Assembly (NCBI RefSeq): GCF_000427905.1
Contig: NZ_KE386604.1
Coordinates: forward strand, 548,648-612,647
DNA length: 64,000 nucleotides
Origin: Thermocrispum agreste DSM 44070
Lineage (GTDB): Bacteria > Actinomycetota > Actinomycetes > Mycobacteriales > Pseudonocardiaceae
Reading direction: 5' to 3'
Each line of letters begins with the position of its first letter. The first letter of the stretch is position 1. Below are positions 57,185-60,585 of the stretch, piece by piece. The notes beneath the pieces are model-generated. The model saw only the letters and a program-made list of their open reading frames with translations, was not told the origin of the DNA and made no database searches. Made by a program: the position numbers and the translations under genes.

Positions 57185-57991
57185 ATGACCAGCGCGACCG
57201 AGGCACCACCACGGCCGGCACCGGAGCTGCTGGACGCGGTCGAGACCGCCCGCGCCGTCGCCCGTGAGGAAGCGGCGGACCGCGGCTACGACGAATCCGC
57301 GGTCGGCGACTACGTGGACCAGGTGGTCGAGGACGCTGCGGCGGTGACGTACCGCTTCGAGGCGCACGTGCCCGGTTACCGCGGTTGGCGCTGGGAGATC
57401 ACGCTGGCGTCGGCCGGGGAGGGCTTCCCGGTCACGGTGAGCGAGGCGGTGCTGCGCCCCGGCCCGGACGCGCTGGTGGCCAAGCCGTGGGTGCCGTGGG
57501 AGCAGCGGGTGCGGCCGGGCGACCTGGGGGTCGGCGACCTGCTGCCCGCCGACCCGAACGACGAGCGGCTGGTTCCCGGCTACCTGCACAGCGACGATCC
57601 TGCCGTCGAGGAGGTGGCGCGCGAGGTCGGGCTCGGCCGGGTGCGGGTGCTGTCCTTCGAGGGCAGGATGCGGGCCGCGAAGCGCTGGCGTTCCGGTGAG
57701 TTCGGCCCGCGGTCGGACATGGCACGCAGCGTGCGGGAGACCTGTGGCACCTGCGGGTTCTACTACCCGCTGTCGGGCGCGCTGCGGGCGGCCTTCGGCG
57801 CGTGCTGCAACGAGTACTCGCCCGCGGACGGCCGGGTCGTGCATGTCGAGTACGGCTGCGGCGCGCATTCCGAGATCAAGGTGCAGCGTAGTTCCGGGGT
57901 GCCGGTGGCCGAGCTGGTCTACGACGACACCCAGCTGGACGTGGTGCCGCTCGGGTCGAACGCGGACGACCGCGGTCAGAGCCCGCGCTGA
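57185..57991 (+). CDS. DUF3027 protein
   Basis: The 268-residue protein has the DUF3027 core, including HVPGYRGWRWEITLA, AKPWVPWEQRVRPGDLGVGD, and a zinc-like pair of cysteine motifs (CGTCGFYYPLSG and FGACCNEYSPADG). Function is unknown; the family is actinobacterial. The ATG at 57185 is the usual family start. The frame continues upstream but there it is antisense to the cyclotransferase gene. Confidence 0.88.
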   Translation: MTSATEAPPRPAPELLDAVETARAVAREEAADRGYDESAVGDYVDQVVEDAAAVTYRFEAHVPGYRGWRWEITLASAGEGFPVTVSEAVLRPGPDALVAKPWVPWEQRVRPGDLGVGDLLPADPNDERLVPGYLHSDDPAVEEVAREVGLGRVRVLSFEGRMRAAKRWRSGEFGPRSDMARSVRETCGTCGFYYPLSGALRAAFGACCNEYSPADGRVVHVEYGCGAHSEIKVQRSSGVPVAELVYDDTQLDVVPLGSNADDRGQSPR

Positions 57992-58269
57992 GCCCCGCGC
58001 GATCCGCGCCGGGAGGCCCAGCGCTGCCAGGAAACGACGCCCATCCCGACGAATCCGAGGACGAGCCCGGCCAGCGAGGTCTGTGGCCAGATGCCGACGT
58101 CGGCGTCGAACGCGTAGCGAAGCACCAGCGAGACGCCGAGGGCGACGGCCCATGCCCCGGTCCCGACGAGCAGCGGCGGCCGCAGGTCCACCAAGCTCTT
58201 GGGCAGGTCGGGTGGGGTGCGCCGACCGTCCGCGGTGGCGGCGCCATCCGGGTTCCGGTCGGTGGTCAT
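57976..58269 (-). CDS. DUF2530 membrane protein
   Basis: The 97-residue protein has two membrane helices (LLVGTGAWAVALGVSLVLRY and LAGLVLGFVGMGVVSW) in the DUF2530 pattern and a basic C terminus. It overlaps the end of the DUF3027 gene by 16 bp tail to tail. Function is unknown. Confidence 0.82.
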   Translation of the reverse strand: MTTDRNPDGAATADGRRTPPDLPKSLVDLRPPLLVGTGAWAVALGVSLVLRYAFDADVGIWPQTSLAGLVLGFVGMGVVSWQRWASRRGSRGAQRGL

Positions 58270-58377
58270 GACCGAAGCCTACCCACGCCCGTCCCGGTCC
58301 GCCGCCGGCACCGTGCTGCCTGCCGGATCCCGCTCCCGACCTGCGTCATGGCGGTGCCGACTCGGTAGGCTGGCGGA

Positions 58378-58815
58378 ATGGACACCGTGCCGCGGACCAG
58401 TGATCGTGGGCTGGCCGCCCGGTTGCGGCTGGCCGTCGTCCGGCTCAACCGCCGCTTGCGGGCGCAGAACCCGCCGACCGACGTCACCCTGACGCAGCTG
58501 TCGGCGATGTCGACGCTGCACAAGTGCGGGCCGATGACGCCGGGGCAGTTGGCGGCCAAGGAAGGGGTGCAGCCGCCGTCGATGACCAGGGTGATCGCGG
58601 CGCTGGAGAAGATGGGCTACGTCGAGCGCCGGGCCCATCCCACCGACGGCAGGCAAGCGATCGTCGAGCTGAGCCGCCGCGGCGTGGACTACGTCAAGGC
58701 GACCATCACCGCAAGGGAAGCGTGGCTGGACGAGCAGCTGGCCAAGCTCACTCCGCAGGAGCGCCAGATCCTCGACCAGGCGGCGGAACTGATCCAGCGA
58801 ATGGCTGAACAGTAG
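58378..58815 (+). CDS. MarR-family transcriptional regulator
   Basis: The 145-residue winged-helix protein shows TLTQLSAMSTLHKCGPMTPG, QLAAKEGVQPPSMTRVIAAL (recognition helix) and GYVERRAHPTDGRQAIVEL (wing). It is divergent from DUF2530, and its position equals mycobacterial Rv0880. The ligand and targets are unknown. Confidence 0.93.
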   Translation: MDTVPRTSDRGLAARLRLAVVRLNRRLRAQNPPTDVTLTQLSAMSTLHKCGPMTPGQLAAKEGVQPPSMTRVIAALEKMGYVERRAHPTDGRQAIVELSRRGVDYVKATITAREAWLDEQLAKLTPQERQILDQAAELIQRMAEQ

Positions 58816-58845
58816 CGTGTTCGCGCCCACGATCCGGACCCCGTG

Positions 58846-58876
58846 TTGCACGGCAGGTGAGGTTAGGCTAACCTCA
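58846..58876 (+). promoter_or_regulatory. Promoter overlapped by an IdeR/DtxR iron box
   Basis: TTGCAC (58846-58851) and TAACCT (58869-58874) form a -35/-10 pair with a 17-bp spacer. The 19-bp palindrome TGAGGTTAGGCTAACCTCA (58858-58876) covers the -10 and matches 17 of 19 positions of the iron-box consensus. An iron-loaded IdeR/DtxR repressor would block this promoter. Confidence 0.82.
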
Positions 58877-58880
58877 GTCG

Positions 58881-58958
58881 CGTCGCTTCGTGGTGGGAGC
58901 GGCAGTCAGTTCGGGAACGCACGAAGGCCCCGTGGCGGAGGACGCGCCACGGGGCCTC
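58881..58958 (+). ncRNA. Candidate iron-responsive small RNA
   Basis: From the predicted start near 58881 to the hairpin ending at 58957 the transcript would be about 80 nt and holds no convincing protein gene. The layout (iron-box promoter, short body, strong terminator) is that of an iron-sparing small RNA such as mycobacterial MrsI, but no sequence relation is claimed. Confidence 0.45.
58925..58957 (+). terminator. Strong hairpin terminator
   Basis: GGCCCCGTGGCG pairs perfectly with CGCCACGGGGCC (12 bp) around a seven-base loop, flanked by an extra A-T pair. No T run follows. Confidence 0.8.
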
Positions 58959-59639
58959 GTCGCGTCGTCAGGATACTCCGGCAGGCCTGTCGATCAATGT
59001 GATGTCGGGCGGCGTCCGGCCGATGCCGTCGGTGGTGTCGGGCCACATCACCTGTCGATCGGGCTGCTGGTGATGCGCGGATGATCCGGCTGGTCGCTGA
59101 GGTCGTCGGGGTCGGGGTGGTGTGGCGTGGTGGTGCCTGGCGTCGCTTGGGGCCGGGGTGGGCGAATGCCGGGCTGGCTTGTTGTGGTGCGGTGCTGTGG
59201 CTGGTTACGAAGGTTCGTGGGCCTGCGGGCACTGGGTCGGTGTCGCGGTGGGCGGTGGCGGGGGGGGGGTGCCCAGGGGCCTGAGCCGGGCCGTGCCGGG
59301 CGGTGTGCGGCCATTGGCGTGATCCGGCTGGTCGCGGGTCACCGAGGTCGTCGAGGTCGTCGCGGTGGTCCGGCAGCGTCTGGCGTTCCGTGGTCGGGCC
59401 GGGCGCGTGTCGAGTCGGCTTGCCGTGGCAAGGTGGGTGGCCGTTCCCCGCAGTCGTCGCGTGTCCCGGATCAGCGTGCTGCCACCCGGTCGCGATGCGA
59501 CTGCCACTCTGCGGTCGGCGCGCACAGTCACTGCCGTCGTCTGGTGTGCGGTCGGTGCGCTGGTCAGGCCTGGCTCCTCCTGCCCGCCGCACCCGCGGTG
59601 AACCGTCCGTTCGCCGATGAACACCCCGTTTGCCGTGAC
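58959..59639. other. 681-bp spacer without a recognised gene
   Basis: The stretch is G-rich on the plus strand and includes a run of ten G at 59260-59269 and two similar blocks starting ATCCGGCTGGTCGC (59084 and 59322). Open frames on both strands are low-complexity and no family is recognised. Confidence 0.45.
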
Positions 59640-59670
59640 GGCCCGGTCCGGCACATGGCCGGACCGGGCC
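59640..59670 (-). terminator. Terminator of sodA
   Basis: GGCCCGGTCCGGC and GCCGGACCGGGCC form a 13-bp perfect stem with a five-base loop, 19 bp beyond the sodA stop codon on the minus strand. Confidence 0.85.
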
Positions 59671-59688
59671 GGGAAAGCACGGGTGGCG

Positions 59689-60309
59689 TCAGCCGAGCAG
59701 GCCGTTGCCGCCGTTGACGGCGTTCTCGAACCGCTTGGCGATCTCCGCCCAGTTGTAGACGTTCCACAACGCCTTGACGTAGTCCGCCTTGACGTTCTTG
59801 TACTGCAGGTAGAACGCGTGCTCCCACACGTCGGTCATCAGGATCGGCGTGGTGGGCAGCGCCATGTTGTTGTGGTGGTCGCGCAGCTGCTGAATGACCA
59901 GCCGCTTGGCCAGCGGGTCCCAGGACAGCGCAGCCCACCCGTTGCCCTGGATCGTGGTGGCCACCGCGTTGTAGTGCGCCTGGAACTTGTCGAACGAACC
60001 GAAGCTCTCGTCGATGGCGGCTGCCAGCTCACCGGTCGGCTTGTCACCGCCCTCCGGCGACAGGATCTTCCACCACACCACGTGGTTGGCGTGCCCGGCC
60101 AGGTTGAACGCCAGCGTGGTCTCCAGGCCGACGATCGCCCCGTAGTCACCCGCGTCGCGGGCCGCGGCCAGCTTCTCCATCGTGTCGTTCGCGCCCTTGA
60201 CGTAGGTCGCGTGGTGCTTGCTGTGGTGCAGTTCGTTGATCTCGCCGGAGATGTGCGGCTCGAGTGCGCCGTAGTCGTAGTCGAGATCGGGAAGCTCGTA
60301 GAGCGCCAT
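59689..60309 (-). CDS. sodA: Superoxide dismutase (Fe/Mn)
   Basis: The enzyme converts superoxide to oxygen and hydrogen peroxide. The 206-residue protein has metal ligands His28 ([12 protein letters not shown]), His76 (GHANHVVWW), Asp160 and His164 ([16 protein letters not shown]). No signal peptide is present. The sequence is close in pattern to mycobacterial SodA. Whether Fe or Mn is used is not decided here. The ATG at 60309 is preceded by GAGGGAGC. Confidence 0.97.
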
Positions 60310-60585
60310 CTGTGCTCCCTCAATTCACACGGGTGGGAATTCCGCTATTCAACCTAGTCCGGATCACTACCCCGGTCGAACCGGGTGATCAAGAGCTACC
60401 AGCCACGATGCAACTTCCACCACGGTGGAGGTCAACGCGGTGTGGTCACGACCACTTCGTACCCACCCGGCGGGCAAGTCAACCACGCGATGCAGCCGGC
60501 GCGCGTGAACCCGGGCCGGGGCGCACACCGGTCAGCGTGCGCCCCGGCCGCCTGCACCCGCGACGAAACCCGATCGTCCGGAGGC

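Follow-up and report, generated by a model that had tools for sequence, protein, structure and literature searches.

The window analysed here is a 64,000-nt stretch of the 4.19-Mb genome of Thermocrispum agreste. In it, a MarR-like open reading frame on the plus strand (58378–58815; named by reading its sequence, with no family search) is followed by an iron box, a short conserved sequence and a terminator-like hairpin. The fold and conservation of this interval point to an sRNA of about 85 nt on the plus strand, which would run from 58880 to 58965. Its next neighbour is sodA (59689–60309, minus strand; named in the original prediction and by reading the sequence), which faces the opposite way, as that prediction had it. 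No convincing gene was found between box and hairpin, again as predicted. The roughly 0.7 kb from hairpin to sodA (58970–59690) also holds no convincing gene; it is rich in GGT/CGT-like repeats and contains a G run near 59260.

The IdeR/DtxR box, TGAGGTTAGGCTAACCTCA (58858–58876, strand-less), is recognised by its symmetry, its match to the consensus and its conservation. The claim of a perfect 19-bp palindrome matching 17 of 19 iron-box positions is borne out: the palindrome arms are 9 nt long, and 17 of the 19 positions agree with TTAGGTTAGGCTAACCTAA, which we take to be the iron-box consensus. The four CCTAA repeats described for an IdeR box in the available part of one report (PMC8464063) agree with it. 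The proposed promoter fared less evenly. A -35-like element, TTGCAC (58846–58851, plus strand), and a putative -10 element, TAACCT (58869–58874, plus strand), which lies within the box, do have the predicted 17-nt spacing, but each hexamer has just three of six consensus bases, and a strict sigma-70 scan called no promoter at the sRNA locus.

Across the genome, a scan with TNAGGTTAGGCTAACCTNA at up to three mismatches gave 15 strand-wise matches at nine places, with the sRNA box alone exact; the reversed pattern had no genome match. The other eight near-box sites have iron-uptake, siderophore and further genes beside them: two SIP genes, a Lys/Orn monooxygenase and formyltransferase, a haem oxygenase, FecCD next to a periplasmic binding protein, FhuF_C and two ABC genes. 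Of the proteins that the genome encodes, three have a DtxR-type domain, and one of these is IdeR (E 6e-97 to PDB 7b1v, the IdeR of Saccharopolyspora erythraea; PMC8464063, in part).

Directly 3′ of the box lies the conserved core of about 36 nt (58881–58916, plus strand), which scores 63.2 bits with the covariance model R1 described below. It includes stem-loop I (58882–58903, plus strand), in which 58882–58889 are predicted to pair with 58896–58903 around the loop GUGGUG (58890–58895); by this fold, the proposed seed is GUGGUGGGA (58890–58898, plus strand). The linker AGTCAGTTCGGGAAC (58904–58918, plus strand) is nearly invariant and, by prediction, mostly unpaired. The hairpin (58925–58957, plus strand) has perfect 13-bp arms (58925–58937 and 58945–58957) and a 7-nt loop; it stands about 45 nt past the presumed start near 58880, where it had been predicted, and is one pair longer than described (13 bp, not 12). 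It has no T run and was absent from the output of a terminator scan that requires one; actinobacterial terminators have likewise been described as lacking a T run (PMC3919588, in the part available). Folded as a whole, 58880–58965 reaches −53.6 kcal/mol (z −4.1), and one of 200 shuffles does as well. In Rfam 15, nothing exceeded the gathering cut-off over 57800–60400 (the best overlapping match was F6 on the opposite strand, at 23.1 bits against a cut-off of 46).

Conservation across the Pseudonocardiaceae

A 160-nt DNA query found matches in 34 of 36 genomes of the same family at E values of 7.4e-11 or below, and in 6 of 24 genomes outside it, all at E values of 1.9e-4 or above. The part common to the relatives consists of the box together with the core behind it (consensus TCCGCTTCGTGGTGGGAGCGGCAGTCAGTTCGGGAAC). 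A search of 397 genomes of the order with model R1, built from the core alone in 30 sequences, all from Pseudonocardiaceae, gave at least 51 bits in 78 of the 79 Pseudonocardiaceae listed (the exception being G284, and nine genomes with no match standing outside the count), and the highest score listed for other families was 28.6 bits. A closer look at G003, G018 and G284 still gave no strong sRNA match. A pattern scan of named genomes returned at least 80 matches; 78 of the 80 listed bear genus or family names that presumably belong to the Pseudonocardiaceae, and the remaining two are Nocardia sp. NRRL S-836 and a Pseudonocardiales bacterium.

The box is no part of model R1, and it precedes the core in all 123 distinct copies (those with the exact core pattern in loci L010–L069 and L100–L179, near-end copies and copies identical over 150 nt being dropped). 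Its scores there are 13 to 17 out of 19, with 109 copies at 16 or 17; among 2255 windows drawn at random from the same loci, three reached 13. In 120 of the 123 copies the distance from box to TTCGTGG is 9–11 nt, and the T at −12 before the box is kept in the same number, with the flanking bases varying. The hairpin has at least 13 pairs in 119 copies and is represented by 111 distinct sequences over all 123; its median fold is −43 kcal/mol versus −22 kcal/mol in control windows, a third of which also have at least 12 pairs. Stem I varies little: a two-sided pair change occurs in two of the 123 copies, such a change was seen in L029, and the support from covariation is slight, its score being equalled in 49 of 500 shuffles.

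Box, core and hairpin are kept together in close relatives; the original prediction had named a box not conserved there as a ground for its own refutation. With this conservation, an IdeR in the genome and the iron-target signal described below, the predicted arrangement of an IdeR/DtxR-repressed sRNA is, as a reading of sequence, largely upheld.

Four of the loci contain two copies each. Two or three sRNA copies, some in tandem and often with a 1-base insertion in the linker, were seen in L027, L115, L116 and L154 and in genomes G005 and G270, which are Pseudonocardia where named.

Predicted target sites beside ribosome-binding sites

The G-rich loop suggested a target rule, namely TCCCACCAC beside the ribosome-binding site. 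The rule was searched as TCCCACCAC-N0-10-AGG-N4-10-ATG in 45 genomes of the family and 30 others, with the reversed seed as control. Totals were 69 matches for the seed versus 36 for the control within the family, and 20 versus 21 outside it (p 0.089, not decisive alone); several of the seed matches stem from G464–G468, genomes left outside the sRNA search. All but one of the 69 family matches were read, the last being a duplicate in a terminal repeat. Once reading frames shorter than 60 codons or with GC3 below 0.78 were left out (among them hypC of G003, GC3 0.77), 48 seed and 18 reversed-seed frames remained in the 45 genomes. Pfam covered 47 of the former and all 18 of the latter; L320 was judged by eye to be a transporter permease.

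Iron enzymes or their partners account for 15 of the 48 seed frames versus 1 of the 18 controls, a class that was set after the proteins had been seen (one-sided p 0.026 for the share; p 0.0003 for the number, 15 versus 1). The 15 comprise IlvD, a NiFe hydrogenase, two ferredoxins, two CoxS-type [2Fe-2S] proteins, two catalases, two Rieske oxygenases, an Sdh cytochrome, two P450s, a 4Fe4S molybdopterin oxidoreductase and a molybdenum hydroxylase of the window's own genome, the last counted as iron because of an overlapping [2Fe-2S] gene. The sole iron frame of the control is a haem dehydratase. Target families recur in different genera. Complementarity continues past the seed into GA at 8 of the 15 iron sites versus 7 of 64 others (p 0.0008), an extension that may partly reflect the ribosome-binding site itself. 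Outside the family, 11 of the 20 seed matches were read; four had reading frames, none of them encoding an iron protein.

Other searches were less productive. A longer seed with free spacing, CTCCCACCACG-N0-17-ATG, gave no clear excess in 46 genomes, with many starts unconvincing; its few iron-related starts (P450, hypC, RimO-like, molybdenum hydroxylase) are not counted as evidence. A 12-mer search allowing one mismatch in two genomes of the genus revealed no common leader target in the 30 loci read.

In the window's own genome one gene fits the rule, the molybdenum hydroxylase that overlaps its [2Fe-2S] partner gene. Its leader has a perfect 15-nt complement to the sRNA that ends 7 nt before the ATG, and the predicted duplex has an energy of −51.8 kcal/mol, which none of 500 shuffled targets matched. 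Catalase was followed through orthologues collected by protein similarity (the own genome has no catalase of that type at the cut-off used). Of 22 family genomes, 10 have a complement of at least 8 nt next to the start; leaving aside the two that the seed had picked out, the figure is 8 of 20. The sRNA was shown in 19 of the 22, the others being G464, G466 and G467; if these three are set aside together with G007, which the seed had picked out, 8 of 18 have the site. By comparison, such a site occurs in 5 of 440 windows inside these genes, and of 5000 scrambled complements five perform equally well. Among genomes with no sRNA shown, one of eight catalases has the site (that of G054), and the comparison of sRNA-bearing or untested family genomes with the rest gives p 0.076.

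Recurrent seed frames outside the iron count are DUF1540 (three), PhoD (two) and metallophosphoesterase (two). DUF1540 proteins are Cys-rich and perhaps metal-related; the seed complement precedes the start in L378, L395 and L399, from different genera.

A proposed iron-sparing mechanism and its alternatives

These observations are best read, with a probability of roughly 0.7, as those of an sRNA gene at 58846–58965 that would be repressed by IdeR and would spare iron by pairing at the ribosome-binding sites of iron-enzyme mRNAs. With iron present, IdeR-Fe would sit on the box over the -10 region and block transcription, as proposed from the position of the box and the known action of IdeR. 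When iron is low, IdeR would leave the box and the RNA of about 85 nt would be made. Its predicted structure is a stem-loop whose loop is rich in G, followed by a single-stranded linker that hardly varies between copies and by a terminator hairpin. The loop GUGGUGGGA would then pair with UCCCACCAC, immediately upstream of the ribosome-binding site in mRNAs for catalase, ferredoxins, CoxS- and Rieske-type proteins, P450, IlvD, hydrogenase and Sdh cytochrome and, in the own genome, in the molybdenum-hydroxylase operon. Such pairing would presumably hinder translation and so spare iron.

The alternative that survives best, and that we still rate as unlikely, is a real IdeR-controlled sRNA that acts mainly elsewhere than at the ribosome-binding sites of iron enzymes, by way of its invariant linker or of a bound protein, with the seed signal owed partly to chance. 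Across copies the linker varies no more than the loop does, and the non-iron seed frames also exceed their control (33 versus 17, p 0.016). There are exceptions to the target rule as well: hypC in G003 has an 11-nt site and the catalase gene of G054, a genome of another family (L496), has a 12-nt complement to the loop region, and these sites speak against the rule since neither genome has a strong sRNA match. What tells against this alternative is the excess of iron enzymes, the return of the same target families across genera and the catalase site. Pairing with iron-enzyme mRNAs is predicted from a signal that is significant and not exception-free.

A very improbable alternative is that the RNA regulates its convergent neighbour, either as an antisense RNA to sodA or by acting on the sodA leader. 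The neighbourhood is conserved: sodA is downstream and convergent in 79 of the 123 copies and in no other orientation, a count in which many of the other 44 copies offered just a short stretch. The sodA mRNA had also been suggested as a target, and a 7-nt match, TCCCACC, is present only in the leader of the window and of a congener. The suggestion is not supported: in 21 of the 24 distinct leaders of sodA the complement is no longer than 6 nt; three reach 7 nt, the third through another segment. In several loci, the window included, the end of sodA is at least 700 nt away. What is conserved about sodA is its position. Of the proposed target predictions, then, that on iron-protein mRNAs in general gave a statistical signal with exceptions, and that on sodA found no support. 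Upstream of sodA in L024, L029, L030, L033, L034 and others, a TTGCAA-like motif is repeated around TAG.

The hairpin could also be no more than a terminator, either for the MarR-like gene or, working in both directions, for sodA as well, in which case the box would act on a neighbour. This too has very little to recommend it: the MarR-like frame of the window ends 42 nt before the box and sodA is often convergent, as noted, but within the set of loci compared a close MarR-like gene is found there just in L010, L011, L012 and L014, while box, core and hairpin are kept in the others, and the invariant core would be left unexplained. Least probable of all is that a leader or a small protein is expressed from the box: core GTG codons open short reading frames, but the core is near-invariant at every base, third codon positions included, a 1-base insertion breaks the frame in some copies, the hairpin follows the core directly and the next conserved gene faces the opposite way.

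A bolder version of the iron-sparing sRNA is held tentatively, at somewhat under even odds. The RNA would represent an undescribed family-wide class in which an invariant G-rich loop reads a C-rich address, UCCCACCAC, by the ribosome-binding site; IdeR-controlled iron sparing would have had two or more origins within the order (here and in MrsI); and the linker would serve as another functional site, where an RNA chaperone might bind in place of Hfq (these bacteria are not known to have Hfq). On this version the address would be carried by each genome's own dispensable iron enzymes, so that the sRNA could stay fixed while its regulon turns over.

Relation to known iron-sparing RNAs

The Pseudonocardiaceae include many antibiotic producers, and one IdeR of the family, that of S. 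erythraea, has solved structures. Searches of main texts in the open-licence literature found no iron-sparing sRNA for the family. A prediction in S. erythraea gave 265 intergenic sRNA candidates (PMC3827479, in the part available), and the locus may appear in its supplementary sRNA table or among the IdeR sites tabulated in PMC8464063. The IdeR regulon of S. erythraea concerns the same family and the same type of box, with in vitro binding at two native sites of one cluster; it differs in that the accessible part of the report names no sRNA, and sites more than 500 bp from a start codon were discarded (PMC8464063).

The closest parallel is mycobacterial MrsI, whose targets include ferritin-type genes. 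As described in the available parts of two reports, MrsI is an actinobacterial sRNA of about 100 nt with an IdeR box near its start, a seed in an apical loop, a terminator and iron-enzyme targets (PMC11188477, PMC8628891); of these traits, the present locus has the IdeR box over the promoter and the terminator hairpin. Seven of 30 mycobacterial BlaI loci contain a box-led RNA of about 100 nt with a terminator, divergent from blaI, which fits the description of MrsI in the part of PMC11188477 available; these loci are called MrsI from gene order and that description alone. The two RNAs differ in place (likely MrsI is divergent from blaI, whereas the Pseudonocardiaceae sRNA lies beside sodA or other genes), and no homology was found: run on eight mycobacterial loci, R1 scored 8.6 bits at best.

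RyhB, PrrF, FsrA and IsrR are likewise iron-sparing sRNAs controlled by a metal repressor (PMC9410917, in part), with Fur in place of IdeR; two of them, RyhB and PrrF, act with Hfq. The motifs of IsrR and FsrA are C-rich, whereas here the proposed seed is G-rich and the C-rich site would lie in the mRNA by the ribosome-binding site. The s-SodF of Streptomyces coelicolor, an actinobacterial RNA of about 90 nt that is tied to a sod gene and has a stem-loop pairing up to the ribosome-binding site, is cut from the 3′ end of sodF mRNA and belongs to nickel and Nur (PMC3919588, in the part available); the Pseudonocardiaceae sRNA has an iron-box promoter of its own. A comparable origin from a sod 3′ UTR was rejected: in all 79 copies with sodA nearby, the sRNA and sodA are on opposite strands. 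The resemblance to MrsI and RyhB would be one of working, compared by design rather than descent, and the sRNA is offered as having evolved convergently with MrsI, RyhB and IsrR. A fixed seed and a simple address rule would make the regulon directly testable.

One further element was considered as a relative of MrsI and set aside, since it is present at full length in just 2 of 60 mycobacterial genomes. It is a different RNA-like element led by an IdeR box and ending in a terminator, which lies at L097:1937–2062 beside a BlaI-type gene.
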